Positions 18,519-38,200 of a stretch of DNA of 45,087 nt are shown piece by piece. Source of the DNA: Spirochaetales bacterium Spiro_05 (GTDB lineage: Bacteria; Spirochaetota; Spirochaetia; Sphaerochaetales; Sphaerochaetaceae); assembly GCA_001603115.1 (NCBI GenBank), contig LVBG01000032.1:1-45087 (forward strand), written 5' to 3'. Positions within the stretch are counted from its first letter, which is position 1. Every line of letters starts with the position of its first letter. The translations under genes and the position numbers were made by a program. Below the pieces are notes generated by a model. The model made no database searches. It saw nothing but the letters and a program-made list of their open reading frames with translations, and was not told the DNA's origin.

Positions 18519-19220
18519 ATGATCAGACAGATGATTACCATAGATGAAGAGAAGTGCAACGGTTGCGGCTTGTGCGTAAGCGCTTGTCAGGAAGGAGCCA
18601 TCGGCTTGGTAAACGGAAAGGCTGTCCTTCTGCGGGAGGACTACTGCGATGGGCTCGGCAACTGCCTGCCGGTCTGCCCCACCGGCGCCATAAGCTTTGA
18701 GGAGCGTGAGGCCCCTGCCTTCAACCATGAGGAAGTGGAGCGATTGATGGGTGAGCAGAAGCCAGTCTTCAGTTGCCCCGGCAGTCAGATCAAGGTGATG
18801 AAGCAGGAGAGCCGGAAAGAAGAGGTTCCTTCCGCACAAAGGCCACAGAAGATGGCAAGCCAGCTTCGCCAGTGGCCGGTGCAGATCAAGCTCGCTGCGC
18901 CCAATGCCGCCTTCTTCAACAACTGTGACCTGCTCATTGCTGCCGACTGTGCAGCCTATGCCCATGGGGATTTCCACAATACCTTCATCCGCAACCGGGT
19001 CACCCTCATCGGCTGTCCCAAGCTCGATGAAGGCGACTATGCAGAGAAATTGGCTGCAATCTTTTCAAGCCATGACATCAGAAGCGTCACGGTGGCACGG
19101 ATGGAGGTCCCTTGCTGTGGAGGCCTCGACCATGCCGTAAAGCGTGCCATCACTGCCAGCGGGAAGATCATTCCCCTTGCTGTGGTGACCATCTCCACCG
19201 AAGGAGAGATTCTTCGCTAG
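18519..19220 (+). CDS. Two-cluster 4Fe-4S ferredoxin-type protein
   Basis: GGAGG (18509-18513) five bases before the ATG at 18519 sets the start and gives 233 residues; TTG 18492 and ATG 18507 in the same frame are less well placed. Residues about 5-60 hold two cluster motifs: CNGCGLCVSACQ, and CDGLGNCLPVCPTG with a longer C-x5-C gap than usual. The C-terminal part (KLAAPNAAFFNNCDLLIAADCAAYAHGDFHNTFI, then GCPKLDEGDYAEKLAAIF and MEVPCCGGLDHAVKRAI) adds further cysteines, possibly a third metal site. Such proteins often accompany hydroxylamine reductase (Hcp), though no hcp gene is seen in the window. It shares a CTAG stop overlap with the convergent barrel gene. Confidence 0.85.
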   Translation: MIRQMITIDEEKCNGCGLCVSACQEGAIGLVNGKAVLLREDYCDGLGNCLPVCPTGAISFEEREAPAFNHEEVERLMGEQKPVFSCPGSQIKVMKQESRKEEVPSAQRPQKMASQLRQWPVQIKLAAPNAAFFNNCDLLIAADCAAYAHGDFHNTFIRNRVTLIGCPKLDEGDYAEKLAAIFSSHDIRSVTVARMEVPCCGGLDHAVKRAITASGKIIPLAVVTISTEGEILR

Positions 19221-20284
19221 TAGATCCAGGAAGCCCCTACGCCAAGAGCAATCCTCTGATCGCCCTCCCAATTGAACAGATCCGAGCTCTGTCCGAAGGG
19301 AGCGGAGAGGAAGCCTACCAAGCTGAACCCCTCAAAGACCGACCAGCTCGCCCCCACTGTCGCATTCATCGACAGATCGAGCGGGCTGAGGATGCTCCTC
19401 AGACTGAGGGAGAGGCTGCTTGTTGGGGTATACACAAGCTCTGGGTAGAGCAGGAAGGTGCAATTTGCATCCTCCTGACCTTTGAATGCCCAGCTTTGCA
19501 GAGGCCTGCTGAGAAATTCCAACCTGAGTGTCAGGGTTCGGTCACCGGGGAAATAGAGAGAGTGGAACAAGCCGCCGGTAACCAGAAGGTCAGAGGTGGA
19601 TGCTGTGAACTGTCGATCCAACTCAACGGAAGAACTGAGATACCAATCGGCTCCAATGTTTCCCTGAAGGCTTACATAGGGCTTGTGTTTTCGTACCCCT
19701 GCATCGGTGGTGGCGAATCCCGCCTCCACCTTTGTCTCCCCCACATTCGTGTAGAATCGGAAGCCGAATCCTGCATCCTCAATCCTGCCAGAAGTGCTGG
19801 GGATGAGTATGGTTTCAAAAAAACTGAAGAAACCCAGCGGGTAGTTCAGTGCTGCCATCCAATCTGTCTTGTCCCGCAGCACTGCCTGCGTCAGGCTTAC
19901 TGAGGTTGAAGAACTGCCATAGAGCACATCTCCTGCATTGAAGAGCATGCCGTCGCCCCAGCTGAGGCGGGTTTTCCCTGCAGTCAAGCGGAAGGAGGGG
20001 AAGCGTGCACGCAGGTACGCCTTGTGAATGACCTCTTCCAATGTTGGAGAGGAATCGGGATACGATGCCTTGAGCACCACCTCCCCGCGGACATTGCCCG
20101 AGTTCGGGGAAGGGAGGGAGATTTTCAGATCCATACTGGTTCCCTGATGAACCGTTTCTGTTGAGGGCTTGTAGGAGACACCTCCCAAAAGTGACATATC
20201 CACCACAGGGACTACCGCAGCCAGAAGCGGAGTCAGCAGAAAAGAGAGCACAAAAGCCAAGCAAAGCGTTCTTTTTCCTACCAT
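19217..20284 (-). CDS. Predicted outer-membrane beta-barrel of the ABC/LolA operon
   Basis: The 355-residue protein has a signal peptide (MVGKRTLCLAFVLSFLLTPLLAA) and many alternating amphipathic strands, and ends in an aromatic residue (GVGASWIY), as outer-membrane barrels do. I see a strand motif RLTAGKTRLSWGDGMLFNAGDVLYG near residue 100, which recalls barrels of the DUF1302 type. A comparable but weaker motif lies in the barrel at 33.9-35.1 kb. It is the last gene of the seven-gene operon and overlaps the end of the LolA-like gene by seven bases. I infer an acceptor or exit point in the outer membrane for the operon's cargo. The exact family is not certain. Confidence 0.75.
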   Translation of the reverse strand: MVGKRTLCLAFVLSFLLTPLLAAVVPVVDMSLLGGVSYKPSTETVHQGTSMDLKISLPSPNSGNVRGEVVLKASYPDSSPTLEEVIHKAYLRARFPSFRLTAGKTRLSWGDGMLFNAGDVLYGSSSTSVSLTQAVLRDKTDWMAALNYPLGFFSFFETILIPSTSGRIEDAGFGFRFYTNVGETKVEAGFATTDAGVRKHKPYVSLQGNIGADWYLSSSVELDRQFTASTSDLLVTGGLFHSLYFPGDRTLTLRLEFLSRPLQSWAFKGQEDANCTFLLYPELVYTPTSSLSLSLRSILSPLDLSMNATVGASWSVFEGFSLVGFLSAPFGQSSDLFNWEGDQRIALGVGASWIY

Positions 20285-21024
20285 GTCAGATTCTCCAGGG
20301 AGAAGATGTTTGCCCCAAGCGGAACATTCACTTCCAGGCTATCCAAGGTCATCCAGGTTGCACTGTCGCGTTTCATCTTGTCCTCAATCTTGGTCTCGGA
20401 GGGAAGCGTTCTGCCTGCCACCTCAACAGTGGAGAGCACTTCCATCACCTTCAATAACCGTTTCTGGGCTGTGGAGTACTCAGCCTTCCACACCAGGTAG
20501 GTCTGCTTGTCCACCCAGATCTTTTGCACCGGATAGGCAACGGTTCTCTTCTTTGCGGTGAGCGTCAGCACATGGCAGTCATGGCCATTGACGATCTCAC
20601 TGCCTTCCAGGACCACCGTATAGCTGTCAAGTGTATTCTTCTCCTCGGTCATATCCTCGTAGGAGAGATCGCTTCCCAGCACAGACTGCCTCAAGGCAGC
20701 GCCTTGCAACCGGATCAGTTCCTCGGCATCGGGATAGAAAAGATAGAGACTCGACTGGGTCCTCAGTATCTTCTGCCCACGTTCTGCAGTGCTGGTAAAT
20801 TCGATCAGGGAGTCACTGGCCCCTCGTGCCCATGCCTTGAAGGTGCTGATCTTGGTTCCGAACCTGTCGGTGGTCTTGATTGAGCCTGTGGAGACCGAGG
20901 TTTCGAAGGTAGCCATCTCGTCCATCTTCTGGATGACTTCCTCGCCGGTGAGGGCGAACAGGAACGAAGGGATGATGCAAAGAAGCGAAAGGGTCAAAAG
21001 GAGTTTGACGACAGGTTTAGACAT
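20278..21024 (-). CDS. LolA-like periplasmic outer-membrane lipoprotein-sorting protein
   Basis: The 248-residue protein has a signal peptide (about 1-25, ending SFLFALTGEE) and the LolA/LolA_like beta-sheet pattern. It begins EEVIQKMDEMATF, then LYLFYPDAEELIRLQ, GSDLSYEDM (about 121-129) and VQKIWVDKQTYLVWKAEY, with a C-terminal VEVAGRTLPSETKIEDK strand. LolA carries hydrophobic cargo, classically lipoproteins, from an inner-membrane ABC complex to the outer membrane. GGAGG lies nine bases before the ATG, inside the permease gene it overlaps by eight bases. Because it is tied to its own ABC transporter and barrel, it may serve a dedicated cargo rather than be the housekeeping LolA. Confidence 0.82.
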   Translation of the reverse strand: MSKPVVKLLLTLSLLCIIPSFLFALTGEEVIQKMDEMATFETSVSTGSIKTTDRFGTKISTFKAWARGASDSLIEFTSTAERGQKILRTQSSLYLFYPDAEELIRLQGAALRQSVLGSDLSYEDMTEEKNTLDSYTVVLEGSEIVNGHDCHVLTLTAKKRTVAYPVQKIWVDKQTYLVWKAEYSTAQKRLLKVMEVLSTVEVAGRTLPSETKIEDKMKRDSATWMTLDSLEVNVPLGANIFSLENLTW

Positions 21025-22252
21025 AACGCAGAGCCTCCACTATTTGGATTTTTGAAGCACGTCGGGAAGGAATGAGGGTGGAAAGGGATGCAATGATGAT
21101 CGCATACACCCAAACAAAGAGGGCGATGAAGAAGTTGACCTGTGGGTAGAGGATGGAGGAAATCTCCATATCCACTCCACTCATTGCCTCGGTGAAGTTC
21201 AGCCCCACCTTGCTGAGAATGAAGACGATGATCAGGCCGGCGATGGTTCCGAGGGTGGAGCCTATGATGCTGATGAAGCTGCCTTCGAGCAAGAAGAGCC
21301 TGGTAAGCTCCTTGCCTTGCATGCCCAATGCTCCGAGTGTTCCGATCTCGCGCATCCGTTCATAGATGACCATCATCGTGGTGTTGATGATCACCGTACT
21401 GCCAAGTAAGAAGAAGATGGCTCCCATGACGTAGTAAATGAACTTGGCTATGGAGAGCAAGGAGTACATCGCATTCAGGTCCTTCCATGCTTTGGTTTCG
21501 GTTTGCAGCGAGAGCTCGGTCTGGAGTAGCTCTTTCACGGAAGCGGCCACATCCCGCTCCTTGTATCCATCCTCGGTCAGCAGGAGTATCTCCTGGACCT
21601 GTCCTTCCATCCTCAAGAGGTATTGGGCTCTGTCAAGTGGAACGTAGAGCACCTTTGCATTGAGCCCTCCCACGGGGAAGGAGGCAATGCCCACGATCTG
21701 GAAGGTCATGGCATTCGATCCGCGCAAGGCCGTGGACGTGAGCACGGTCACCTTGTCCCCAAGGTTCAGATGGAGATCGCGGGCAAGCAAGGCCCCGATG
21801 AGCATCTCATTACTGCCCTCAGTGGGGAGTCTTCCCTCCTTTACCAGCGAGGGGAAGTCTATGAAGGCCTCTTCGGAGGCAAAGTCCACCCCGACGCCCA
21901 GTGCAGCATTGTTCTTGCCGTTCAGATAGAGGTTGGCAGGAAAGTTGATTCGCTCTGTTGCTGCACGTACTCCCTCCTGCTTTTCTACCAAAGGAAGGAC
22001 CTCATCCATATCGAGACTCAGATGCAAGGGGTTGTAGCGCTCATACTGCTCAAACGACTCATGGCGGATTCTCACTTCGCCGGTGTAATAGCTGACCAAG
22101 TTGGTTGCCATGTCACTCTCCATTGCCTCCAGCAGGGCAAGGAGGGCCATGATGGCCATGGCAGAGACTGCGATGGCGATGGCACTGAGCATCGAGCGAC
22201 GGAAATTTCGGAATATGTTGCGAAACGCAACGGCAGGAAGTTTGATCGTCAT
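21017..22252 (-). CDS. ABC transporter permease, FtsX/MacB/LolCE type (second permease)
   Basis: The 411-residue protein begins with a cytoplasmic stretch and one helix (NIFRNFRRSMLSAIAIAVSAMAIMALLALLEAM). It then has a periplasmic domain of roughly 220 residues and three helices at the C-terminus (about 270-405), the last followed by PSRRASKIQIVEALRYV. This is the FtsX-type four-helix topology of lipoprotein-extracting LolC/LolE and of MacB-like exporters. MIVYERMREIGTLGALGMQGKELTRLFLLEG is the conserved coupling region. With the other permease it likely forms a heterodimer served by the upstream ATPase. It follows the first permease by 11 bases. Confidence 0.92.
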   Translation of the reverse strand: MTIKLPAVAFRNIFRNFRRSMLSAIAIAVSAMAIMALLALLEAMESDMATNLVSYYTGEVRIRHESFEQYERYNPLHLSLDMDEVLPLVEKQEGVRAATERINFPANLYLNGKNNAALGVGVDFASEEAFIDFPSLVKEGRLPTEGSNEMLIGALLARDLHLNLGDKVTVLTSTALRGSNAMTFQIVGIASFPVGGLNAKVLYVPLDRAQYLLRMEGQVQEILLLTEDGYKERDVAASVKELLQTELSLQTETKAWKDLNAMYSLLSIAKFIYYVMGAIFFLLGSTVIINTTMMVIYERMREIGTLGALGMQGKELTRLFLLEGSFISIIGSTLGTIAGLIIVFILSKVGLNFTEAMSGVDMEISSILYPQVNFFIALFVWVYAIIIASLSTLIPSRRASKIQIVEALRYV

Positions 22253-22263
22253 TGCATTTCCTC

Positions 22264-23520
22264 CTATTGGTGATGCAGACAGGTGGGGATGTCAAGTTTC
22301 AGTGCGCGCCTGATGGGGAAGATCGCCACCAGCATGGACAAGCCGATCCCACTGAAAAAAGCCTTGGCGATGGTTGCAATGCTCCAAGCGCCGCGCATGA
22401 CATTCTGGATTCTGAAGCCGATGTCCATATCCCTGAACATAAAACCGAAATCGAATCCGACATTGACCAAATAGAGATTGGCCAGGACCCCGAGCAGGAC
22501 GCCGACCAACGATCCGACCAAGCCGATTCCCCCTGCCTCAAAGAGGAAGGAGAAGAGGATGTCACGATCTTTCATTCCCATGGCGCGCATCATCCCAATC
22601 TCGCGCATTCGCTCGAACATTGCCATCAGCATGGTGTTGGAAACACCGACGGCTGCGATGATGAAGACCAGGAAAAGGATCAATCCTGTTCCTCCCTGTT
22701 TTGCCTGAAGCAAAGCGAGGTAGTCGTGGGCAAGGTCCTCCCAGGTAAAGACACGCAGCTGCGGGTCGATGGAGGCAAGGTCAGCCTGCAGGGTTTTGCT
22801 GACAGAGGCCAGGTTGCTCTTCTCTGGAAGCAGGATGTCAATGCTCGTCACCGCGCCTTCCATGCCCAGGTAGAGATCCGCAGCATCCTTGTCCATCATG
22901 ACCAAGGTCCGGTTCACATTTGGGTTGGGACAGTTGACAATGCCTACAATCTGCATGTCGAAGGCCTCATAGAAGCCTCCCTTTCCGCGGGTGACGAAGG
23001 TGACCCAGTAGCCTACCTTTGCCCCGATGTCTTCAGCGAACCAGCTGCCGAGGACCACGCCGTCCATCTCGCCCTTTTGCAGGAAACGCCCCTCAAGCAG
23101 GGTATCCTTGAAGCGGTAGACGGAAAAATCCGTCTCCGGGTTGATGGCGGTCACCTGGACCGTCATATTGCCGTCCTCACCGAAGTCATCCTGATAGAGG
23201 ATCATGTCGGCAGTAAAGACCGTGCGTTCGGTTGCCGCGATACCCTTTTTTGCAAGGAGATCCAGTACTGCTTCGGGATCTCCGATGGATGACTCCAACG
23301 GAAGGAACATTCGCTCTTCCCAATAGGATTCCTTATGAACGCGCAGAGATGCGGTTTCGTACCATTTCAGGTTGCGCATGGATTCCAGATTTGCCCCCAT
23401 GAGCAGGGAATCCACGAAGATGTACATCATCAGTCCCATAGCGATGGCTATGGAGGTGATGATGGTTCTTCGCTTGTATCGCAGCAGGTTCTTGGCCGCC
23501 AGTTCCAAGATGAATTTCAT
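22264..23520 (-). CDS. ABC transporter permease, FtsX/MacB/LolCE type (first permease)
   Basis: The 418-residue protein has the same topology as its neighbour: MKFILELAAKNLLRYKRRTIITSIAIAMGLMMYIFVDSLLMG (first helix), a large periplasmic domain, three C-terminal helices and the coupling region MLMAMFERMREIGMMRAMGMKDRDILFSFLFE. The N-terminal LAAKNLLRYKRRT is the usual LolC/E-like start. Differences between the two periplasmic domains suggest a division of labour, as between LolC (chaperone docking) and LolE (cargo binding). Which is which cannot be told from the sequence alone. Its ATG overlaps the ATPase stop codon by one base. Confidence 0.92.
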   Translation of the reverse strand: MKFILELAAKNLLRYKRRTIITSIAIAMGLMMYIFVDSLLMGANLESMRNLKWYETASLRVHKESYWEERMFLPLESSIGDPEAVLDLLAKKGIAATERTVFTADMILYQDDFGEDGNMTVQVTAINPETDFSVYRFKDTLLEGRFLQKGEMDGVVLGSWFAEDIGAKVGYWVTFVTRGKGGFYEAFDMQIVGIVNCPNPNVNRTLVMMDKDAADLYLGMEGAVTSIDILLPEKSNLASVSKTLQADLASIDPQLRVFTWEDLAHDYLALLQAKQGGTGLILFLVFIIAAVGVSNTMLMAMFERMREIGMMRAMGMKDRDILFSFLFEAGGIGLVGSLVGVLLGVLANLYLVNVGFDFGFMFRDMDIGFRIQNVMRGAWSIATIAKAFFSGIGLSMLVAIFPIRRALKLDIPTCLHHQ

Positions 23521-24200
23521 CAGGCTCTCCTTTCATCACTGACAATCATGCCATCATGAAGTTGTACCAGGCGTGTGGCATAATCCATGACCATCTGGTC
23601 GTGGGTTGAGAAGATGAAGGTGGTACCATACTTCTCATTCATCCGTTTCATGAGCTTGAGAATCTCTTCCCCGGTCTTGGAGTCGAGGTTGGCAGTCGGT
23701 TCATCGGCAAGGATGATCTGCGGCTGTTTTACCAAGGCTCGTGCGATGGCAATCCTCTGTTGCTGACCCCCGCTGAGCTTTGCCGGCCTCCTGTGTTCCA
23801 TGCCACTCAGCCCCACTTCCCTGAGCACCTCCATGGTCCGCTCCTCAATCTCACGCTTCTCCACATCCAGAAGGGAGAGGACGAAGGAGACATTCTCGTA
23901 GGCAGAGAGCACTGGGATCAGATTGTACGTCTGGAAGATGAAGCCCAGGTTGTTTCTGCGGAAGGTGGTCTTCTCGGCTTTGTCCATCCCGCTGATCGGG
24001 ATGTCATTGATGAAAATCTCCCCCTCATCGATGGCATCGATGCAGCCGATGAGATTGAGCAGGGTGGTCTTGCCCGAGCCTGAGGGCCCTGCAATGGAGA
24101 GAAATTCTCCCTTATCCACTTCCAATGAAACCTTTCTGAGAGCCTTGACGACACTCTCCCCGCTCTTGTAGTTGCGCGAAACCTTATCTACTTTGATCAT
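23520..24200 (-). CDS. ABC transporter ATPase, LolD/MacB type
   Basis: The 226-residue ATPase has Walker A GPSGSGKTTLLN (about 38-49), the Q-loop GFIFQTYNLIPVLSAYENV, signature LSGGQQQRIAIARAL, Walker B IILADEPTANLDSKTGEEIL and an FSTHDQMV switch His. This is the LolD/MacB/FtsE-like branch, which powers extraction or mechanotransmission rather than solute import. It overlaps the slipin gene by four bases and its stop overlaps the first permease by one. It hydrolyses ATP in the cytoplasm for the two permeases. Confidence 0.96.
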   Translation of the reverse strand: MIKVDKVSRNYKSGESVVKALRKVSLEVDKGEFLSIAGPSGSGKTTLLNLIGCIDAIDEGEIFINDIPISGMDKAEKTTFRRNNLGFIFQTYNLIPVLSAYENVSFVLSLLDVEKREIEERTMEVLREVGLSGMEHRRPAKLSGGQQQRIAIARALVKQPQIILADEPTANLDSKTGEEILKLMKRMNEKYGTTFIFSTHDQMVMDYATRLVQLHDGMIVSDERRA

Positions 24201-25291
24201 ACTTGTTCCTTCTGCTTTTCTGCATGCTCTGATTCCTGTTGTTTCTGTAAGGCTGCACTGCCAAGCACAGCTCCAAAGTCCATATGGTCCAGGATGGATG
24301 CAGGCATCAGCATCATGGAGTTGTTCTGCCTGATACCCTCATAGATCATGTTCATTGACCTGAGTTGGAGTGCGATGGAGTCCTTGGCGTACTCTGCCGA
24401 AGCCTCACGGAATTTCTTTGCTATCTCAACTTCGGCAGCACCAAGAATGATTCTTGACTCCTTCTCCCGTTCTGCCTGTGCCTGTTTGCTCAACGAGTCT
24501 TCAAGTTCCTTAGGGATGATGATGTCGGTGATTTCCACCGAAAGTATGGACACTCCCCAGGGGTTGGTCTTTGCATCCAAGGCTTGCTGAATCTCACGAC
24601 CCAACTCCTCTCGCTTGCTGAGAAGGCTCGAGAGGGGGTGTTTCCCGATGGAGTCCCGAAGCGCGGTCTGTGCCGAAAGGATGACCGCCTCGGTGTAGTC
24701 CTCCACCTCAAGGATTGCCTTCTTTGCATCCCAGATCATCCAGAAGCAGAGTGCATCGACATGTACCGGCACGGTGTCCTTGGTCAGGGTTTTCTCTGCG
24801 CTGAAGTCAGTCGCCCTGATACGCATATCGAGGAACTCGGCGATTCTGTCCACCAAGGGTATGAGCAGGAACAGCCCCGGTCCCTGCACTTTGTGGAACT
24901 TGCCCAACCGGAGGATGATCACCTTGTCCCAGTGGTAGACCAGCTGGAAGGAGGAGGAGAAGAGAAGTCCCAGGGTAGCGAAGATGGTGATGGGGTAAAG
25001 ATAGATCGAAAGCCCCCCAGCCACCCCGACCCACAGGATCAGCAGGATGCTGGTCATGGTGACCCACAACGGGAAGATGGCTATGACCAGTGCACAGACA
25101 AAGACTGCGGTGCTCACCGCTACAGCTGCTTCTATCCCAAGGAAAGGGAAGAGGGCGAGCTGGAGGGCCGATCCGGCACCGAGGAAGAGAGCCAACACCA
25201 AAAAGGAGATTGACCCAAATGCGAAATCTTTCTTGAGGGTGAACCCTTTCAGGTTCTTGATGCGTTCAATTTTCTTCTGGTACAGATTCAT
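24197..25291 (-). CDS. Slipin / stomatin-like SPFH protein with extended membrane domain
   Basis: The 364-residue protein carries an N-terminal membrane region with about four hydrophobic stretches (residues about 25-125). Most stomatins have only one hairpin. The SPFH (prohibitin-homology) domain starts at VYHWDKVIILRLGKFHKVQGPGLFLLIPLVDRIAEFLDMRI and continues through VPVHVDALCFWMIWD and GVSILSVEITDIIIPKELEDSLSKQAQAEREKESRIILGAAEVEIAKKF. A coiled-coil-like end follows. Slipins form membrane scaffolds often linked to NfeD proteases; none is present here. The gene sits between a GntR regulator (2 bases) and an ABC ATPase (4-base overlap). I infer it organises the membrane zone in which the transporter works. 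Confidence 0.88.
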   Translation of the reverse strand: MNLYQKKIERIKNLKGFTLKKDFAFGSISFLVLALFLGAGSALQLALFPFLGIEAAVAVSTAVFVCALVIAIFPLWVTMTSILLILWVGVAGGLSIYLYPITIFATLGLLFSSSFQLVYHWDKVIILRLGKFHKVQGPGLFLLIPLVDRIAEFLDMRIRATDFSAEKTLTKDTVPVHVDALCFWMIWDAKKAILEVEDYTEAVILSAQTALRDSIGKHPLSSLLSKREELGREIQQALDAKTNPWGVSILSVEITDIIIPKELEDSLSKQAQAEREKESRIILGAAEVEIAKKFREASAEYAKDSIALQLRSMNMIYEGIRQNNSMMLMPASILDHMDFGAVLGSAALQKQQESEHAEKQKEQV

Positions 25292-25293
25292 GA

Positions 25294-25707
25294 TTATTCC
25301 TCTTTTCTCTGTTGTTCGGATCCAAGGTCACTGATATTTTGCAGGATTTCCTCGAGGCTGAAGCCATAGCTGGCAGCCTTGCTGAGGAACTCCTTGCTTA
25401 TCTGGGAGAGAATGCGTTCACGCTCGATGGCATCGATGCTGACTTTCTTGTCACTGATAAAGGTTCCGGAACCCTGCTGGGTGACTACGATGTTGCGGAT
25501 TTCCATCTCTGCATACGCTCGTGCTACGGTATTTGGGTTGATGCTCAAATCGACAGCAAGGCTGCGCACCGTTGGCAACTGAGCGCCTTTCTCCAGCCTT
25601 CCGTCAGCGATGGCCATCTCCACCTGCAGGATGATCTGCTTGTAGAATGGGACCCCGCTCTTTGCATCCAGGCTGAAATCCAATCTCGGCTCCTCTTTCA
25701 GTTTCAC
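25294..25707 (-). CDS. GntR family regulator, YtrA subfamily
   Basis: The 137-residue protein begins with GTG at 25707, preceded by GAGAGGG. It has the short GntR winged helix: GVPFYKQIILQVEMAIADGRLEKGAQLPTVRSLAVDLSINPNTVARAYAEMEIRNIVVTQQGSGTFIS. Only a short helical tail follows, which is the YtrA subfamily trait (no large ligand domain). In Bacillus, YtrA represses an ABC transporter operon induced by cell-wall-active antibiotics. Here it heads a seven-gene operon with an ABC transporter and lies just behind a promoter overlapped by an inverted repeat, so I infer autorepression and control of the whole operon. Confidence 0.93.
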   Translation of the reverse strand: MKLKEEPRLDFSLDAKSGVPFYKQIILQVEMAIADGRLEKGAQLPTVRSLAVDLSINPNTVARAYAEMEIRNIVVTQQGSGTFISDKKVSIDAIERERILSQISKEFLSKAASYGFSLEEILQNISDLGSEQQRKEE

Positions 25708-25724
25708 CGACTATCCCTCTCTTC

Positions 25725-25754
25725 TTGTACTATTGTACTGGTGTATTAGTACAA
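25725..25754. promoter_or_regulatory. Candidate GntR operator
   Basis: TTGTACT (25733-25739), eight bases, then AGTACAA (25748-25754) is a perfect 7-base inverted repeat. A third half-site TTGTACTA (25725-25732) lies directly before it in the same orientation as the left arm. The array covers the spacer and -10 box of the operon promoter, an arrangement suited to repression by the GntR protein encoded next to it. Confidence 0.7.
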
Positions 25755-25760
25755 TGTCAA
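25732..25760 (-). promoter_or_regulatory. Promoter of the GntR-slipin-ABC-LolA-barrel operon
   Basis: On the minus strand: TTGACA (25760-25755), exactly 17 bases, TACAAT (25737-25732). The start codon follows 24 bases later. The -35 box is a perfect match to the sigma-70 consensus. Confidence 0.75.
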
Positions 25761-25782
25761 CACAAGCTTTCTTATGTCCAAC

Positions 25783-25811
25783 AAAAACGGCTGCCTCCGG
25801 GGGAAGCAGCC
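25783..25811 (-). terminator. Rho-independent terminator after the pirin gene
   Basis: On the minus strand GGCTGCTTCC and GGAGGCAGCC pair around a CCC loop and GTTTTTG follows. It separates the pirin gene from the GntR operon promoter. Confidence 0.78.
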
Positions 25812-25833
25812 ATGTCTAGATTCAGGATGGTTG

Positions 25834-26670
25834 TTATGCGTGTTTGATGAACGTTCCGTCACGAAGCTCGCGTTGTGCAACGGCAAGCTCTTCAGAGGTG
25901 TTCATGACGATAGGCCCGGCCCAGGCAATGGGTTCCCCGAGGGGTTTTGCACTATAGAGGAAGATTCTTGCTCCTTCATCCCCGGCCTTCAGTGACAGGG
26001 TATCACCCTCGCCGAAGAGAATGGCACGGTGGTAGGGTACCTCTTGCTCCGCGGTGTGGACAGAGCCTTGGACAAGGTAGATGAACAGGGTGTGTTCAGG
26101 ATCGAGGGTAAGGGTGAACTCAGTCCCTTTCTCCAGCTTCACATCAAGGTAGAGGGTACGGACATAGTCGCCCTGCTCAGGACCAGAGACATCCTCGTAG
26201 GTTCCGCTGATTACCCGTACTTCCTTTCCCTCTCCCTTGACCACAGGAATCTGTGGGGGGCGGATGTCACGGTAGGCAGGATCGGTCATCTTGTGCTTCT
26301 TGGGCAAGTTGATCCACAGCTGGGTTCCGAGCATCAGGTTGCTGGGTTTGGGCATTTCTTGGTGGATGATGCCACTGCCGCCGGTCATCCACTGACAGCA
26401 GCCATCGTTGATGCTGCCTTTGTTGCCCATGCTGTCCCCATGCTCGATCTCCCCCTCAATGAGGTAGGTAACCGTCTCGATTCCCCGATGAGGATGCCAG
26501 GGGAACCCCTTGATGTAGTCCTTAGGGTCGGTTGCATCGAAAGCATCGAGCATCAGGAAGGGATCGAACTCCTTCACATCGTGGTACCCGATGACCCGGA
26601 CGAGTTTGACACCGGCTCCATCATACTGGACTGCTCCTCCGGTGATTCTCTTGATCGGCTTGACCTGCAT
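25834..26670 (-). CDS. Pirin family protein
   Basis: From the ATG at 26670 (AAAGGAGAA upstream) the protein has 278 residues. The pirin N-terminal cupin holds the metal motif PWHPHRGIETVTYLIEGEIEHGDSMGN (about 55-81) with its His ligands, and later GGSGIIHQEMP. The C-terminal cupin has the HTLFIYLVQGSVHTAEQEV strand and YHRAILFGEGDTLSLKAG. Pirins are iron-containing cupins; some oxidise quercetin and some act as co-regulators. The cellular substrate here is unknown. Terminators flank both ends (25783-25811 and 26694-26726), so it is probably expressed alone, perhaps by read-through from the ferritin gene. Confidence 0.93.
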   Translation of the reverse strand: MQVKPIKRITGGAVQYDGAGVKLVRVIGYHDVKEFDPFLMLDAFDATDPKDYIKGFPWHPHRGIETVTYLIEGEIEHGDSMGNKGSINDGCCQWMTGGSGIIHQEMPKPSNLMLGTQLWINLPKKHKMTDPAYRDIRPPQIPVVKGEGKEVRVISGTYEDVSGPEQGDYVRTLYLDVKLEKGTEFTLTLDPEHTLFIYLVQGSVHTAEQEVPYHRAILFGEGDTLSLKAGDEGARIFLYSAKPLGEPIAWAGPIVMNTSEELAVAQRELRDGTFIKHA

Positions 26671-26693
26671 ACGTTCTCCTTTTTTCAAACAAA

Positions 26694-26726
26694 ACAAAAC
26701 CGGCCCAGAAACAGGCAAAGCCGGTG
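26694..26726 (-). terminator. Terminator between the ferritin and pirin genes
   Basis: On the minus strand ACCGGC and GCCGGT form a stem with a long loop of about 15 bases, followed by TTTTGTTTTG. The loop length makes it weaker than usual. Confidence 0.55.
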
Positions 26727-26735
26727 ACAATGCTC

Positions 26736-27248
26736 TTAGATTACCAGCGAAGGTGGGCTGAAGACTCTGCTTGCCAACTCTTGATTGAGCATGTACAGGC
26801 CCTTGCTGTCAGATCCGAAGACTTCAAACTTCTGGATATTCTCTTGGGCGTTCATCTCCTCTTCACCCTGTTCCTTGATGAACCAGTTGAGGAATTCCAA
26901 CGTACGATAGTCCTTTGCCTTCGATGCTTCCTCATAGATGGTATTGATGGAAGCGGTGACATACTCTTCGTGCTTGAGCGCCTCAACAAGCGGTTGCTTG
27001 AGGTTCTCATACTCCTTGGTGGGGTCAGCGATGGCTGAAAGGGTTACTGCATAGCCATTGTTCAGCAGGTATTGGCGGAACAGCATGGCATGGCTCATCT
27101 CCTCCTGTGCCTGGACCTTGAACCAGTTTTCGTAGCCAAGAAGGCCCTTGCCTGCATAAAAATTGGCCATATCCAGATAGAGATAGGCTGAATAGAACTC
27201 TTTGTTCACTTGTTCATTGATCAGGTCAGCGATAGGTTGTGCTAACAT
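26736..27248 (-). CDS. ftnA: Ferritin
   Basis: The ATG at 27248, with AAGGAG nine bases upstream, gives 170 residues, normal for bacterial ferritin. LAQPIADLINEQVNKEFYSAYLYLDMANFYAGKGLLGYENWFKVQAQEEMSHAMLFRQYLL holds the first half of the ferroxidase site (Glu near 17, Glu and His in EEMSHA). The second half lies in LEFLNWFIKEQGEEEMNAQENIQKFE. No haem-binding Met is evident, so it is a ferritin rather than a bacterioferritin. It stores iron as ferric mineral in the cytoplasm. A strong promoter with an inverted repeat across its spacer lies upstream and may be regulated. Confidence 0.95.
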   Translation of the reverse strand: MLAQPIADLINEQVNKEFYSAYLYLDMANFYAGKGLLGYENWFKVQAQEEMSHAMLFRQYLLNNGYAVTLSAIADPTKEYENLKQPLVEALKHEEYVTASINTIYEEASKAKDYRTLEFLNWFIKEQGEEEMNAQENIQKFEVFGSDSKGLYMLNQELASRVFSPPSLVI

Positions 27249-27284
27249 CGGAATTTCTCCTTGTGCGTGTACGGTGATATTCAA

Positions 27285-29356: not shown

Positions 29357-29874
29357 CCGATTTCCTGCTTGCCGCTGACAAGGTCTGCGGTGAAGAGCGC
29401 ATACTCCTCGGTGTTCTCCCTGATTTTCTCGTACTCCTCATCGGTGAGGATGCGCACCAGCTTGGCGGGAACACCCATCAAGAGGGAACGGGGAGGGAAG
29501 CTCTTGTTCGGAGAGACCACAGCTCCTGCACCCACCAAGGACTGCTCACCGATAAGACTCCCGTCCAACACAATGGCTCCCATCCCGATGAGGCACTCGT
29601 TTCCTATGGTGCAGGCGTGCAGGATGGCACTGTGGCCAACCGTGCATCGAGCACCCACCACCAGATTCTGATCCTTGGTCACATGCAACACTGCATTGTC
29701 CTGGATGTTGGTCTGCTCCCCGATCTCAATCGAGCCCACATCTGCTCTGAGGGTGGCATGAAACCAGACCGAGCAGCCGTCTTTGAGTGTAACTTTTCCT
29801 ATCAGGTCAGCAGAGGGGGCGATGTAGCAATCTCTTCCAACCAGTGGTTTGTGTGTGTTGTGTGCATACAGCAT
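29353..29874 (-). CDS. Gamma-carbonic anhydrase family protein (YrdA/PaaY type)
   Basis: The 173-residue protein is a left-handed parallel beta-helix of hexapeptide repeats (SADLIGKVTLKDGCSVWFHATLRADVGSIEIGEQTNIQDNAVLHV and so on). The three metal-binding His residues are in VLHVTKD, VGHSAILHA (two). The C-terminal helix is LLMGVPAKLVRILTDEEYEKI. Such trimers bind Zn or Fe; some are true carbonic anhydrases, others of unknown activity. No clear ribosome site precedes the ATG. It is monocistronic and convergent with ktrA with interlocked stop codons, and divergent from the zinc uptake operon. Confidence 0.93.
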   Translation of the reverse strand: MLYAHNTHKPLVGRDCYIAPSADLIGKVTLKDGCSVWFHATLRADVGSIEIGEQTNIQDNAVLHVTKDQNLVVGARCTVGHSAILHACTIGNECLIGMGAIVLDGSLIGEQSLVGAGAVVSPNKSFPPRSLLMGVPAKLVRILTDEEYEKIRENTEEYALFTADLVSGKQEIG

Positions 29875-29919
29875 GGCTCGATTGAACCATATTCAAACAG
29901 GGATGTACAGAGAGAAGGG

Positions 29920-29946
29920 AAAATTTGCGAATGACTTGCAAATTTT
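29920..29946. promoter_or_regulatory. Candidate Zur operator upstream of znuA
   Basis: AAAATTTGC (29920-29928) and GCAAATTTT (29938-29946) form a perfect 9-base inverted repeat with a 9-base spacer. The right arm overlaps the -35 box of the znuA promoter, so a bound Fur-family protein would block transcription. Confidence 0.65.
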
Positions 29947-29964
29947 TACCAACTTCACTATCTT
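29936..29964 (+). promoter_or_regulatory. znuA promoter
   Basis: TTGCAA (29936-29941), 17 bases and TATCTT (29959-29964), overlapped by the inverted repeat, and followed by AGGAGG before the ATG at 29987. Confidence 0.55.
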
Positions 29965-29986
29965 GGAGTGCGTACCAGGAGGTACC

Positions 29987-30907: not shown

Positions 30908-31680
30908 TGAGCGTGCCCATCGTTCTCCATTTCCATGATGTCTCGTTCTCCTATCCCCACCTCACGGTCCTTGAAGAGGTGGGTTTTCACGTGCATGAAG
31001 GGGAGTTCATCGCACTCGTAGGTCCAAACGGTTCGGGCAAGACCACCCTGCTCAAGCTCATCCTTGGCCTTGAGCAACCAAAATCTGGAACCATTGAGCT
31101 GTTGGGGCAGAATCCCAGCAAAGCACGGGTTCAGATCGGGTATGTACCCCAGCACGCCTCCTATGACCCCAGTTTCCCCATCTCAGTCCTTGAGGTGGTG
31201 AAGATGGGGATGGTGGAAGCTCGTGGCAGGCAGCCTAAAGAGAAGCTGAGACAGCTGGCCCTCGAAGCCCTGCATCAGGTCGAGCTCGCCTCACTTGCCG
31301 ACCGTCCTTACAGCGATCTCAGTGGAGGGCAGAGAAGACGGGTTCTGGTAGCCCGTGCATTGGCATCCAAACCGAACATGCTTATCCTCGATGAACCTGC
31401 CGCCAATATGGACAAGGAGAGTGAACAGCGCCTCTATGAGACCTTGGCCAAACTCAAGGGAAAGACAACTGTGCTCATCGTCACCCATGATATGAAGCGG
31501 GTCTCCGCCCTTACCGACCGTGTCTTCTGCATCGATGCACATAAGGAGGGCAAAGTCGGACGGACGGTAGTCCAGCATATGCTGGAGGAAGAGCCGGATG
31601 ATGGGGTCAAACGCATTCTTCACGATGTGGAAATTCCTGCAGACCAATGCCGCTATCCCCAGGAGGCAGGCAATGAGTGA
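30907..31680 (+). CDS. znuC: Zinc ABC transporter ATPase
   Basis: The 257-residue ATPase has Walker A VGPNGSGKTTLLKLILGLEQPKSG, the Q-loop IGYVPQHA, signature LSGGQRRRVLVARALASKPNMLILDEPAANMD with Walker B, and a VTHDMKRVSAL switch His. The ATG at 30907 overlaps the znuA stop by one base (TGATG); a GTG at 30904 in the same frame is possible. The C-terminal tail after about residue 210 includes a His-poor extension. It powers zinc import with ZnuB. It overlaps znuB by eight bases. Confidence 0.95.
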   Translation: MSVPIVLHFHDVSFSYPHLTVLEEVGFHVHEGEFIALVGPNGSGKTTLLKLILGLEQPKSGTIELLGQNPSKARVQIGYVPQHASYDPSFPISVLEVVKMGMVEARGRQPKEKLRQLALEALHQVELASLADRPYSDLSGGQRRRVLVARALASKPNMLILDEPAANMDKESEQRLYETLAKLKGKTTVLIVTHDMKRVSALTDRVFCIDAHKEGKVGRTVVQHMLEEEPDDGVKRILHDVEIPADQCRYPQEAGNE

Positions 31681-33827: not shown

Positions 33828-33864
33828 AGAGGCCCTCCAGAAAAATCCTATCACATAACCGGTG

Positions 33865-35091
33865 CTAGAACCATGCTTGCAGGCCTACCATGACCACATC
33901 ATTATCGTCCCAACTCTTGTAGAGGCTGCTCTTGGTGCCTAATGCTCCGTAGATGGTGGCCTTCCCAAATACATGGAGATTGTCCAAAAGAGCATAGGAG
34001 AGCCCAAGCAGAAATGCGTATCCTTCACTCTCCATCTGATACGTCAAGGCACCTCGGAGAGTCAGCTTCTGGTGTATCAGCGGATACTCCACCACGAAGA
34101 TGAGCGTATTCTCGTATGCCTTTCCATCGTAGGAGGCAAGGAAATCGACATCCGAGGGATTCGTGCTGAAGTCGAACACATACCTCCCTTGATAGGCGAG
34201 GGCAACAAAGGCCTCATATGCAGGATGGGTGTAGGAGAGCTCGGCAAGGTAGGCGAGTTTGTTGTTGAAGAGGGCGCTTTCACTTCCCGACCTGTCCTCA
34301 CTGAGAAAGAAGCCACCTTCGAAGGCCAACGTGAAGGGCTCAAGCAAGAGACTGGATTCCAGACCGAAGAGCTGGTAGCGGGTATAGATCAGGTCTATAG
34401 AGAGTGGTGCCAGGCTTGTGATCGAAAATCCCGGGTCAGGATAATGGCCATTGAAATAGAGCAGTCCCGCATCCAGCTTGCCCAAGGAGACGCGATATCG
34501 GCTGCCTATTTCGTATGCCGAGAGTGCATGGGTCTCCATCTCTGTTATGGTAGCAGTTGCGAAGGCTGGTGGGATGAGACTGTATCTGCCCTCGGTGGGA
34601 AGAAAGGAGGGGGCGAACCCAGGCTTGAACAGCAGTTCCAGTGAACTGGTTTCCCAATAGGAGGTGAAGAGGGTCATGAAGGTCGGCCGCTTCATCTTCT
34701 CCAAGTCATCAACCAGCCCACGCCTGAGATCCCTGCCTTGCAACACGTCCACGACATGTGTTGTGGAGGCACTTCCCCAAGGATGGGTGAACAACCCTGC
34801 CTTGAGTGCATGCTGTCCGAAAAATAGGGAGAGGGAGAGCTCATTCGCCTCCAGACCATTCTTTGCCGAGTCGTAGGTGAGAGCGGCCAGTCCGCGGTAG
34901 CGTTCCTCGTTGTACTCGGCAAGCAAGCGTAGGTCGATCTGCTGGTGAAACTGCTTGTCACGATAGAGGCCGAATGTTGGTTCGAGCTCGAAGGAGACGG
35001 TTCTGCTCGCCTGTTCGGCAAAGAAATCGAAGCTGTAGAGCGGAAGCAATACAAGAATTAACAGGATTGCCAAGCATATGCGTTTCATCAT
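33865..35091 (-). CDS. Predicted outer-membrane beta-barrel of the MMPL module
   Basis: The 408-residue protein has a signal peptide (MMKRICLAILLILVLLPLYS), about 16 amphipathic strands and an aromatic C-terminus (VGLQAWF). A central stretch GLFTHPWGSASTTHVVDVLQGRDLRRGLVDDLEKMKRPTFMTLF recalls the DUF1302-type barrels that often accompany MMPL transporters and LolA-like proteins. The ATG at 35091 overlaps the LolA_like stop; a second ATG at 35088 has better spacing from GGGAGG. It is probably the outer-membrane partner of the module. The family name remains tentative. Confidence 0.76.
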   Translation of the reverse strand: MMKRICLAILLILVLLPLYSFDFFAEQASRTVSFELEPTFGLYRDKQFHQQIDLRLLAEYNEERYRGLAALTYDSAKNGLEANELSLSLFFGQHALKAGLFTHPWGSASTTHVVDVLQGRDLRRGLVDDLEKMKRPTFMTLFTSYWETSSLELLFKPGFAPSFLPTEGRYSLIPPAFATATITEMETHALSAYEIGSRYRVSLGKLDAGLLYFNGHYPDPGFSITSLAPLSIDLIYTRYQLFGLESSLLLEPFTLAFEGGFFLSEDRSGSESALFNNKLAYLAELSYTHPAYEAFVALAYQGRYVFDFSTNPSDVDFLASYDGKAYENTLIFVVEYPLIHQKLTLRGALTYQMESEGYAFLLGLSYALLDNLHVFGKATIYGALGTKSSLYKSWDDNDVVMVGLQAWF

Positions 35092-35849
35092 AGCCTCCCG
35101 GTTTCCAAGAATTTCAGGGTGAAGTATGCGCTGTTCAGCGGAACATCAAATCGGGTCTGCATCATCACCAGACGGGTTGCATGACCACTGCTCTCGGTTG
35201 TCATCGTAAGGGCCTTGGCTATGGGTTTTCCGTCGACCACATCGGTTTGGTCGGTAACCAAGGTTTTCAAAAGCGTTGTTCCATCCTTGTCATAAAACTG
35301 TACACGCAGGGGAAGCAAGGTAACCTTGTCCACTACGGAAACCGTCTTGCCATAGGTCTGTTTCTCATACGGAATCGACTGGATGACATACCGTGTTGCA
35401 TCCTCCTCCAGCATTTGATGTACTGCCTGTTTCTCGTCGTAGGTGATTGAGGCCATATCCGCATAGGAGAAATCACTGCCCATGAACGAGCCTCCTTCCT
35501 CTGATGATCCGATGCGTCTGCTTCGTTTCATGGCGGGCAGGTAGATCCACATCTCACTCTTCCCGTCTTCCTTCTCAAGGGAGAGAAAGCGGGTATTGCG
35601 GACATTTTCCGGAGAGAGGAAGATCGTGAGGGAGGATGTCAGTCCATCCTTGGTCTGGCTCAAGGTTTGGATTCTTCGCTCGCGCATCTGTCCGTTTGGA
35701 TCGATGAGGGTAAGCATCAGGTCGAGGGCTGAAGAGGAAGAGCTCTGCGTTTCCATGACCTTGGCCATAATCTGATTTGCAGACAGATCCGCCGAGACCA
35801 AACTGGAAGCCAGGATGAGCAGGGTAAGAGTGATGAATAGTCGTTTCAT
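35088..35849 (-). CDS. LolA_like outer-membrane lipoprotein-sorting protein of the MMPL module
   Basis: The 253-residue protein has a signal peptide (about 1-20, ending SLVSADLSANQ) and the LolA_like pattern. I see QIMAKVMETQSSSSSALDLMLTLIDPNGQMRERRIQTLSQ, then SEMWIYLPAMKRSRRIG, SFMGSDFSYADMASI (about 120-134), and DKVTLLPLRVQFYDKDGTTLLKTL. The GSDFSYADM stretch parallels GSDLSYEDM of the LolA-like protein at 20.3-21.0 kb. It is coupled to the MMPL gene upstream (4-base overlap) and to the barrel gene downstream. The periplasmic shuttle role is inferred from the family. Confidence 0.88.
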   Translation of the reverse strand: MKRLFITLTLLILASSLVSADLSANQIMAKVMETQSSSSSALDLMLTLIDPNGQMRERRIQTLSQTKDGLTSSLTIFLSPENVRNTRFLSLEKEDGKSEMWIYLPAMKRSRRIGSSEEGGSFMGSDFSYADMASITYDEKQAVHQMLEEDATRYVIQSIPYEKQTYGKTVSVVDKVTLLPLRVQFYDKDGTTLLKTLVTDQTDVVDGKPIAKALTMTTESSGHATRLVMMQTRFDVPLNSAYFTLKFLETGRL

Positions 35850-38200
35850 GGGTTCCTCCGGGTGATGAGTGAGCTGTAGTGCACCTTGATGGCACCGAGA
35901 ATGAGCAAGGCACTGAGTGAGGCGCTTATCATGGCAATTGAAAAGAGCAGTCCCATGTTTGCTATGGGGATGAAGCGGCTGAACAGCAAGCCTGAGAACC
36001 CCAAGGCAACCGAGGCGGCATTAGCGAGAATCGCCTTGCCGGTTGTCTGCATGATGGTGGCGAGATCTTGGTCATTGCGTTGGAATGCTGCAATCAGATG
36101 AATGGCATAATCTATCCCTACCCCGATGCAAAGGGCTGCAAGCAGGCTGGTGATGATATCCAGCTTGATGGAGAAGATGGCCATGGCAGCGAACACCGCA
36201 GCCAAGGCAAAGAGGCAGGGGATCATGCTGATGGTGGCAAGCTTTGCCGATCTGAACGTAAGCAAGACCAACAACCAGACAGCAATCAGCGAACTGAAGA
36301 GGGAGATGATCTGGCTTTTGGTCACCAAGTCGGTAAGGGCGAGGCTCACCGCCTCTCCTCCACCAATCTCAACCGTCCAGGATGAGGGGAAGAGGGTCGG
36401 GATCAAATCGGAGAGATGTCGCAGTGTCTGGGTATCAGACCCCTTGAGCAGGATGGTGATGAGCAGATGCTCCGGCTCAAGCGGATCATCGATGAATGCA
36501 TCGAGGGAGGAGCTGTACAGAAGCAGATATTGGGCGATGAGGGAGGAGAGTTGGTTCTCATCTTCCAATCCGTATCGCTCTGGATCCAGCGGAATCTCAT
36601 ACCGTCCCTGTCCTCCTGCTTGTGTGGCTTGAGGCTCATAGGGTTCCCAGCTTGTGGTATCAGGGGGTACGTCAGAGAAGAAATCAAAGACAGGCTCGGC
36701 CTCTCTTGCCGGTGAAATGGGTAGCTCATCACCGGGTCCAAGCAGTTGGTTCATTCGCTTCACGAAGGGAAGGATGGATTGGACTGACCCTACAAACGGT
36801 TCCTTTTCCAGCTCTTGTATTGCTCTCTCGATTGTGGAGAGTGTCTGGGGATGGAGTGCCGAGTCGCTCGGCTTGAGCATGACAGAGAGCGATGAACTGC
36901 CTTGCATGCGCTGGTTGAACGATTCTGTATCCTGAACCAAGACAGAGGATTTGGAAAAGAATGCAAGGATGTTTGTTCCCTTTTCGAGGTTGCTGTAGGA
37001 GAGCGGCAGAATGAGGGCCACCAAGGCGAGCGAGATGAACAAGAGAGCCTTGCCATGGTGGTTTGACAGGGAGCTCTCCACCCTCAGCCATACCCCCCTG
37101 CCTCTTTTTTGCTGCACCTTGTGATGCGCAGGCCTTTTCCGGTAGACCAAGCGGATCAAAGCAGGCAGCAGGATCAGGGAGCTGAGGGCACAGACAACCA
37201 CCCCGATGAAGCTGAGCAGGCCGAAGGTTCGGAAGGGGAGCAGGGGGCTGGTGATCTGTGCGAGAAAGCCGAAAGCCGTTGTGGCTGCAGCAGAAAGGAT
37301 AGGGTAGGTGTTCTTTCTGGCTACCTTGGAGATGGCTGCATTTACTCCTACCTCTTCATACTCCTCAAAGAAGTGGCTGAAAATATGGATGGTGTAAGCA
37401 CTGCCCACAATCAGAAGCAGTATGGGAACCAGCATGGTAGCCATGGTGAAGGTGATGCCGGTCCAACTCATGATTCCCAGTGTCAATGAGCTGCTGAAGA
37501 GCAGCGGCACAAGGCAGAGCAGTGTCGCCTTGATGCTTCTGAGGAAAAGATAGAGCACAAGCATGATGAGGACGGCAACAACCGGACCGAGGGTGACCAT
37601 GTCGGAAAGGAGACTGAGCTTGATCTGCTCGTTTACCACCGGCAGCCCCAAAATGGACGTTTTCACGGAACCTTCCAAGGGAGATAGCAACTGCTTGAGG
37701 GAGGTGAGGAGCAGAGAAGCGTCGTAATCAGTCTGTGTCTGGATGAGGATGGATACACTCGTTCGGTCCTCGCTGAGGAATATGCCCTCATAGAAGCTTG
37801 GCCAACTGGCGATGCGTTCTTCCATCTCTGTGATGCTGCCAGTGGTGAGCGGTACGACGTTCACCCCGTCCAGAGCACTCTCAAGATGCTTGAGATTGCT
37901 CAGCGAGCTGGCTTGCTTCACTCCCTCCAATTGTGCAATACGGTCTGTGAGTTCTCCAAGCAGGGCGAGATGCTCGGTGGTAAGTATGCCTTTCTCATCC
38001 TCAAGGCTCACAACCAGGGCATCGAGAGAACCGAATGATGCTTCAATGCTTCTGTTCGTCTCCACCACCGGTGCTTTGGATGGGATGAATACGTCGGTGG
38101 AGGAGTCGATTTTCAGCCTTCCGACTCCCACGAGGCTGAGGACTGAGACAAGAGCGCATACGGTTATGATGACTGCATCTCGATTCACTTTGTATCCCAT
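35846..38200 (-). CDS. MMPL/RND family transporter
   Basis: The 784-residue protein has the duplicated RND layout. There is one N-terminal helix (AVIITVCALVSVLSLVGVGRLKI), a periplasmic domain with SSTDVFIPSKAPVVETNRSIEASFGS, and five helices (about 190-360). The second half repeats this from about 380 (GKALLFISLALVALILPLSY) to the end, including CIGVGIDYAIHLIAAFQR and ANAASVALGFSGLLFSRFIPIANMGLLFSIAM. This belongs to the MMPL group that moves lipids or hopanoids. It probably uses the proton-motive force and hands cargo to the coupled LolA_like protein. The ATG has no ribosome site and a promoter lies six bases away. Confidence 0.93.
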   Translation of the reverse strand: MGYKVNRDAVIITVCALVSVLSLVGVGRLKIDSSTDVFIPSKAPVVETNRSIEASFGSLDALVVSLEDEKGILTTEHLALLGELTDRIAQLEGVKQASSLSNLKHLESALDGVNVVPLTTGSITEMEERIASWPSFYEGIFLSEDRTSVSILIQTQTDYDASLLLTSLKQLLSPLEGSVKTSILGLPVVNEQIKLSLLSDMVTLGPVVAVLIMLVLYLFLRSIKATLLCLVPLLFSSSLTLGIMSWTGITFTMATMLVPILLLIVGSAYTIHIFSHFFEEYEEVGVNAAISKVARKNTYPILSAAATTAFGFLAQITSPLLPFRTFGLLSFIGVVVCALSSLILLPALIRLVYRKRPAHHKVQQKRGRGVWLRVESSLSNHHGKALLFISLALVALILPLSYSNLEKGTNILAFFSKSSVLVQDTESFNQRMQGSSSLSVMLKPSDSALHPQTLSTIERAIQELEKEPFVGSVQSILPFVKRMNQLLGPGDELPISPAREAEPVFDFFSDVPPDTTSWEPYEPQATQAGGQGRYEIPLDPERYGLEDENQLSSLIAQYLLLYSSSLDAFIDDPLEPEHLLITILLKGSDTQTLRHLSDLIPTLFPSSWTVEIGGGEAVSLALTDLVTKSQIISLFSSLIAVWLLVLLTFRSAKLATISMIPCLFALAAVFAAMAIFSIKLDIITSLLAALCIGVGIDYAIHLIAAFQRNDQDLATIMQTTGKAILANAASVALGFSGLLFSRFIPIANMGLLFSIAMISASLSALLILGAIKVHYSSLITRRNP

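Follow-up and report, generated by a model that had tools for sequence, protein, structure and literature searches.

A conserved GntR-slipin-ABC-shuttle-barrel operon in Sphaerochaetaceae, a candidate self-regulated export route across the spirochaete envelope

Gene organization of the operon

Contig LVBG01000032.1 of Spirochaetales bacterium Spiro_05 (assembly GCA_001603115.1, family Sphaerochaetaceae), analysed over positions 1 to 45,087 (45,087 nucleotides, referred to here as the window), carries on its minus strand a seven-gene operon encoding, in order of transcription, a short GntR regulator of the YtrA type, a slipin, an ABC ATPase, two FtsX/LolCE-type permeases, an exported shuttle protein with a LolA-type fold and an outer-membrane barrel (Table 1). 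The gaps between successive genes calculated from the coordinates are +2, -4, -1, +11, -8 and -7 bases, confirming both in the open reading frame list and in the coordinates the tight packing (+11 to -8 bases) described in the initial annotation of this DNA. The assembly behind the window comprises 2.32 Mb in 69 contigs and is rated 68.6% complete.

Conservation of the gene order in relatives, which that annotation had left to be checked, was borne out with neighbours that are non-random. Named genomes, when scanned, yielded 181 relatives; the best 80 were kept as named loci, 79 with spirochaete titles and one (L156) titled Saccharospirillaceae. The order ATPase-permease 1-permease 2-shuttle is kept in 59 of the 60 named loci with room for it, the exception (L140) being a duplication of permease 1, while the barrel adjoins the shuttle in 70/71 with a broken copy (L167) as the exception. 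The upstream end was judged in 58 of the 80 loci, seven of the remaining 22, L141 among them, being cut upstream and 15 not reaching the ATPase. All seven genes are present in order in 43/58, the five-gene core lacking both GntR and slipin in 14/58, and slipin without GntR in one (L169). Among the 43 complete loci, L118 and L153 have less than 2 kb before the ATPase; other loci that short, for example L141, were set aside. Extra copies of permease 1 occur in L105, L110-L112, L117, L138, L140 and others.

In a panel of 40 genomes, made up of 24 members of the genus (the window's own included) and 16 other relatives in the class, strong shuttle orthologues (E <=5.4e-55) were found in 25, these being 18/24 genus members and 7/16 other class members, with G008 as a nineteenth genus member carrying a cut copy of the operon. 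In one Sphaerochaeta assembly (L056/L167) the frames of permease 2, shuttle and barrel are interrupted, through decay or assembly error. The locus L156, gammaproteobacterial by title, has the five-gene core with a LysR-type gene nearby, through transfer or mis-binning.

Table 1. Coordinates of the operon, its control region and the second shuttle operon in the window.
Feature	Position	Strand	Basis
YtrA-type GntR regulator, 137 aa	25294..25707	-	Pfam GntR 55.2 bits
SPFH/slipin with long N-terminal membrane domain, 364 aa	24197..25291	-	Band_7 118.6 bits at 124-286
ABC ATPase, DarD/DevA/LolD/MacB-like	23520..24200	-	ABC_tran 119.4 bits
FtsX/LolCE-type permease 1	22264..23520	-	FtsX 67.1, MacB_PCD 31.8 bits
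FtsX/LolCE-type permease 2	21017..22252	-	MacB_PCD 64.4, FtsX 55.6 bits
Exported LolA-fold shuttle, PF17131/DUF1329/LolA3 group	20278..21024	-	LolA_like PF17131 161.2 bits
18-stranded outer-membrane barrel, kin of other PF17131-operon barrels	19217..20284	-	predicted structure and profile
Sigma-70-type promoter TTGACA-17-TACAAT	25732..25760	-	11/12 consensus positions
Palindromic candidate GntR operator TTGTACTAATACACCAGTACAA	25733..25754	-	fills promoter spacer, overlaps -10 box
Terminator-like hairpin between upstream pirin gene and operon	25787..25813	-	12-pair stem, T-rich tail
Second shuttle operon	33865..38200	-	pump, shuttle, barrel-like gene
MMPL/RND pump, second operon	35846-38200	-	MMPL 128.6 bits
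PF17131 shuttle, second operon	35088-35849	-	
Barrel-like gene, second operon	33865-35091	-	
LuxR-type gene beside second operon	32910-33854		

The shuttle protein and the outer-membrane barrel

By sequence model and fold the shuttle belongs to the PF17131/DUF1329/LolA3 group, and its closest structures are DUF1329 and LolA3 proteins. The initial annotation of a LolA-like exported protein therefore stands as regards the LolA-type fold but not as regards the family, which is PF17131 rather than the PF03548 of classical LolA; there was no match to PF03548, either in the shuttle or elsewhere in the organism's own incomplete assembly, and hhalign with the LolA profile of the class gave 1.3%. The LolA3 proteins of Porphyromonas gingivalis (PMC13103446) and Flavobacterium johnsoniae (PMC11885536) are described, in the available parts of these reports, as binding LolB very weakly and as lacking the LolA arginine, and deletion of LolA3 in F. 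johnsoniae gave no gliding or amylase-secretion phenotype in the part available (PMC11885536). No experimentally tested function for a PF17131 protein was found in the accessible literature.

The AlphaFold2 model of the barrel has 18 strands at a mean pLDDT of 94.5. In 66 aligned relatives G103, W109, G110 and G112 are invariant (66/66), forming a G-x-WG motif, and the C-terminal residue is Y or F in 65/66. The barrel has no Pfam match above cut-off and its profile has no match at E 1 to the sequences of solved structures. When compared with 16 barrels of other shuttle operons, which were chosen from 25 and all carry the motif, the profile matched over 314 columns (probability 99.0, E 7e-18), and the match persisted without the motif block (96.8, E 2e-10), while a reversed control gave 0.2 and column-shuffled controls at most 0.1 in 5/5. 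Against the window's second barrel alone (3 sequences) the match was weak (probability 51.5). An Omp85-type barrel, as in Borrelia, is unsupported by Pfam or by the 18-strand model.

The promoter, the operator and the GntR-slipin cassette

The GntR domain occupies residues 22-84 of the regulator and is followed by 53 residues, in keeping with the C-terminal part of about 50 amino acids that marks the YtrA type; among NCBIfam models the best were the Rv1152 and PmtR families, both far under cut-off. Upstream of the gene, a palindrome fills the spacer of a sigma-70-type promoter and would serve as the GntR operator. Neither promoter-like sites (3 in the region versus 3.4 in shuffles, the other two scoring 9/12) nor terminator-like sites (8 in 19000-26000 versus 5.9) are commoner than in shuffled sequence, the hairpin being weak taken alone, and so the weight of both elements lies in their position and in the operator.

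The palindrome recurs upstream of GntR as ATTGTACTA-N6-TAGTACAAT. In 43 regions, made up of the window and those 42 named loci, among 44 with a GntR match, that had enough upstream sequence, the palindrome TTGTACTA-N6-TAGTACAA scores at least 14 of 16 positions in 42, with L157 the lone region below at 13, versus 1/860 shuffled controls. The -35 and -10 boxes flank it directly in the window and in the nearest relatives, and in many other loci it follows, as judged by eye, a promoter-like stretch. Scanning the window with two mismatches allowed gave this single site (0.01 matches expected), and the organism's own incomplete assembly contains one exact operator, at the operon promoter. Across the panel the exact operator is present in 22/40 genomes, 18 of which have it at a single place and the others (G002, G016, G024 and G028) at two, while an exact search of the 40 genomes with the reversed pattern matched G038 only. 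In fetched sequence, 14 of the 16 genus members that carry an exact site have it at this operon (G012 and G020 being left out).

YtrA regulons are described as mostly comprising one ABC operon, with long palindromes carrying GT/AC far from the centre (PMC4494728, in part), and, as far as sequence can tell, the long palindrome and single ABC operon seen here match that description (PMC4494728). The likeness extends to a short GntR gene with ABC genes under one long palindrome, as in the Bacillus ytr operon (PMC4494728; PMC12772383), but the available parts of those reports describe no periplasmic shuttle or barrel.

The slipin has an SPFH domain after an N-terminal membrane segment, as expected of slipins and stomatins, and stomatins are the top sequence matches among solved structures. 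Residues 21-112 of the window protein are hydrophobic, and the same region looks hydrophobic by eye in 22 aligned slipins. The GntR and slipin genes nearly always occur together, and as 14/58 loci lack both while they otherwise travel together, the pair looks like an accessory module. The role of inner-membrane organizer assigned to the slipin in the initial annotation is weaker than proposed if meant as a necessary part, given those 14 loci without slipin and GntR and the slipin-free L141. Seven of these 14 loci have a TetR gene directly upstream. The pair also occurs elsewhere, an operator-GntR-slipin cassette standing at the head of an ABC-2 transporter operon in G037 (L214), and in G024 (L211, L212) two operators adjoin other ABC ATPase genes. 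We therefore take the five-gene core to be the machine, with GntR and slipin as a movable control cassette.

Proposed function and nearest described systems

The operon is probably, though by no means certainly, a dedicated, self-regulated exporter of the shuttle type for a hydrophobic or amphipathic cargo. The ABC pump would draw a greasy molecule from the inner membrane, the soluble LolA3/DUF1329-type protein would ferry it across the periplasm, and the 18-stranded barrel would take the cargo and pass it into or through the outer membrane, with presumed contacts between partners at each hand-over. The YtrA-type protein is predicted to act as a repressor on the palindrome in its own promoter, keeping this single operon silent until it is released by a signal from the envelope or a membrane. 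The slipin would be an accessory, nearly always inherited with the repressor, and probably reports on or organizes the inner membrane. The initial annotation of a regulated and conserved set spanning inner membrane, periplasm and outer membrane is supported, the set being distinct from a separate LolCDE-like set in relatives (see below).

The nearest tested system by analogy is AmeABCD of Castellaniella defragrans, in which AmeB is a DUF1329 and AmeA a DUF1302 protein and deletion of ameABCD lowers monoterpene tolerance (PMC6394551, in part). Both combine in one cassette an energized inner-membrane pump, a LolA-fold periplasmic protein of DUF1329 type and an outer-membrane barrel (of DUF1302 type in AmeABCD), but AmeABCD has an RND/HAE3 pump in place of the ABC pump studied here and an additional AmeC, and no GntR or slipin is mentioned for AmeABCD in the available part of that report (PMC6394551). 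The Borrelia BBJ23-29 cluster resembles the operon in having a MacB/LolE-like ABC transporter, a LolA-like protein and an outer-membrane barrel, with a non-polar cargo proposed (PMC13078400, in part), but has one permease (a proposed homodimer), an Omp85-type barrel and two TPR proteins; no Pfam match to Omp85 or TPR was found among the seven proteins studied here. The authors report this seven-gene cluster in Borrelia only (PMC13078400). The earlier statement that no described system with this exact set was known holds within the literature searched, subscription journals lying mostly outside it, but it is qualified by these analogues.

Several observations weigh against the exporter proposed here or against parts of it. 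The window's barrel gave no DUF1302 match at E 0.1 and so is not joined to AmeA by that family, and of nine other barrels scanned just one, RND-linked, passes the Pfam DUF1302 cut-off (27.8 versus 23.2 bits); the comparison barrels, as noted, were selected and all carry the motif. On the shuttle the NCBIfam LolA3 model scores 12.6 against a cut-off of 83, and for Flavobacterium LolA3 a more polar binding site is described (PMC11885536, in part). The best named permease family is lolCE, which leaves a lipoprotein cargo possible. At L141 (1033-1903) the operator and GntR are followed immediately by the ATPase, the slipin being absent, and L141 and L169 are the two loci that break the GntR-slipin pairing. 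On a 57-locus tree (L167 left out) the presence of the pair changes 10 times by parsimony, versus a mean of 12.6 and a lowest value of 9 in shuffles, and therefore the pair is not a clade marker, its presence not being shown to follow clades on that tree. Lastly, 5/24 genus members, with assemblies 80-87% complete, show neither a shuttle orthologue nor an exact operator.

Relationship to the Lol system and alternative functions

The E. coli LolCDE-LolA system is alike in that an FtsX-type ABC extractor hands cargo to a LolA-fold carrier (PMC13078400, in part), but it is a housekeeping system with classical LolA and LolB, while the operon studied here has a PF17131 protein and a barrel. For the second, housekeeping LolA/LolCDE set that the initial annotation proposed to look for in the same genome, the evidence comes from relatives: a separate LolCDE-like permease (E <=2.1e-39) is present in 23/23 other genus members, in pieces or partial in a few, but was not found in the window's own 68.6%-complete assembly. 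In the second permease-ATPase-permease set the ATPase lies beside a permease in 5/5 fetched genus loci, with both permeases recognized by profile in 3/5, by Pfam in L186, and also in G001. At L186 the set adjoins an SRP54-type GTPase gene that reads as FtsY. The separate set, the repressor and the type of shuttle together led to the housekeeping Lol system being set aside as the whole answer. Since the shuttle is of DUF1329/LolA3 type and not classical LolA, lipoprotein sorting of the Lol type is also weaker than first proposed.

A specialized branch of Lol, in which some of the lipoproteins would pass from the permeases to the LolA-like protein and then be inserted or flipped by the barrel, is unlikely, though the likeliest of the alternatives. 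It draws on the permeases, for which lolCE is the top named family and LolF and LolE lead the matches of permease 2 to solved structures; the NCBIfam lolCE scores are 140.0 for permease 2 and 94.2 for permease 1 against a cut-off of 362.45, and 0/40 genomes have any match above it. For the ATPase no NCBIfam model reached its cut-off among the best 25 of 200 matches.

The MacB_PCD domains of the permeases, the YtrA-type and TetR-type regulators and the cassette heading the ABC-2 operon in G037 would all suit a pump of MacB/Bce/Ytr type for defence against drugs or antimicrobial peptides, which the shuttle and barrel would only protect or assist. Such a pump is somewhat less probable again, as no MacA-like adaptor or TolC duct was found by Pfam among the seven proteins (no genome-wide search was made), and shuttle and pump stay together in all but one of the loci with room.

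The distribution of classical LolA raises a further alternative, that in the genus the shuttle of this operon or another PF17131 shuttle replaces a lost LolA and serves the separate LolCDE-like set. By profile A1 classical LolA is present in 13/16 class relatives outside the genus but in 0/24 genus genomes, some of them listed as 99-100% complete, and PF03548 alone gave 12 class relatives outside the genus and none within. At L069 LolA and an HTH_25 (RodZ-type) gene precede RimO, whereas in four genus genomes (L198, L199, L200, L202) no LolA or HTH_25 gene lies on the same strand before RimO within about 1.4 kb and RimO runs into a UvrD-type gene. In ten chosen genomes HTH_25 gave weak matches in five, the best at 25.1 bits versus 74.1 for the gene of the class, and it was weak or absent in the eight genus genomes searched. 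The LolCDE-like permease is kept in the genus all the same. This replacement is nevertheless improbable: the operon coexists with classical LolA in G028, G030, G031, G032 and G036 and is therefore not simply the LolA of those five species, five genus members show no orthologue of the operon's shuttle, G014 (80% complete) shows no PF17131 gene, and a LolA too diverged for the profile may be present. Retrograde transport, in which a hydrophobic molecule gathered by the barrel would be carried inward by the shuttle, would suit a barrel fold that also matches uptake porins such as OprD/Occ but is very improbable, as the characterized permeases of FtsX/MacB type that work with a LolA-fold protein export or extract their cargo.

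Other PF17131 loci and neighbouring genes

The window holds a second shuttle operon about 15 kb from the first, and two shuttle genes are likewise about 15 kb apart in G001, G002, G005, G011 and G018. With its RND pump this second operon is closer to AmeABCD than is the operon studied here. A further 34 PF17131 loci were collected, one from the window's genome and 33 from class relatives outside the genus (12 of these 16 genomes contributed), leaving out fragments (G028 C4 and C2, G032 C126, G037 C252) and orthologues of the operon. Judged by eye, an RND/MMPL pump is present in 18 and FtsX-type ABC permeases in 12, with four uncalled: L226 and L235 at contig ends without a motor, L221 with no callable motor, and L237, a single long frame that matches ACR_tran below threshold. 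The motor or its ATPase is set apart from the shuttle in L062, L229, L243 and L244, and L239 shows only part of a permease. In clustering with such pumps these shuttles resemble the AmeABCD hydrocarbon efflux system. Twenty-five of the 34 loci are listed with a large next gene (L245 pirin-like and L228 cut among them); the strict pattern G[KR]-WG-D occurs in 14/25 versus 4/1000 shuffles and the loose pattern G-WG-D in 20/25 versus 99/1000. In G000 two PF17131 matches at contig ends (C58:3-440 and C11:131074-131235) correspond to neighbouring stretches of the profile, as if a single RND-linked shuttle gene had been split in two.

Upstream of the operon, 25834-27284 holds a pirin gene (Pfam) and, by reading, a ferritin-like gene, an arrangement kept in many genus loci. 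From their translations, the genes at 29849-32913 look like an ABC system for zinc/manganese uptake accompanied by a Fur-type regulator. At 39785-40528 lies an exported-looking protein of 247 amino acids with no Pfam match at E 0.1, which could be a small outer-membrane barrel.

Implications for the spirochaete envelope

As PF17131 genes sit in clusters that also encode a barrel and a pump of ABC or RND type, the annotation 'outer membrane lipoprotein-sorting protein' is suspected to mislead, and the findings suggest that these proteins are carriers of dedicated export routes. The question may extend to Treponema pallidum, in which TP0789, annotated in this way, is among the abundant proteins (PMC10600179; PMC5015957, both in part). 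The near-constant pairing of slipin and repressor makes a case for testing the role of bacterial slipins, while the single-site operator offers a direct experimental handle, since the signal that releases the repressor will probably reveal the class of cargo. Tentatively, and with much less confidence than the exporter itself, a spirochaete class of exporters may be envisaged in which one carrier (PF17131) and one type of barrel (the G-WG motif) work with interchangeable ABC or RND motors. The ABC form would be governed by a GntR-slipin cassette that responds to the condition of the inner membrane and is transferable to further ABC operons. Classical LolA was not detected in Sphaerochaeta, and there such a carrier may also have taken over part of the work of LolA.

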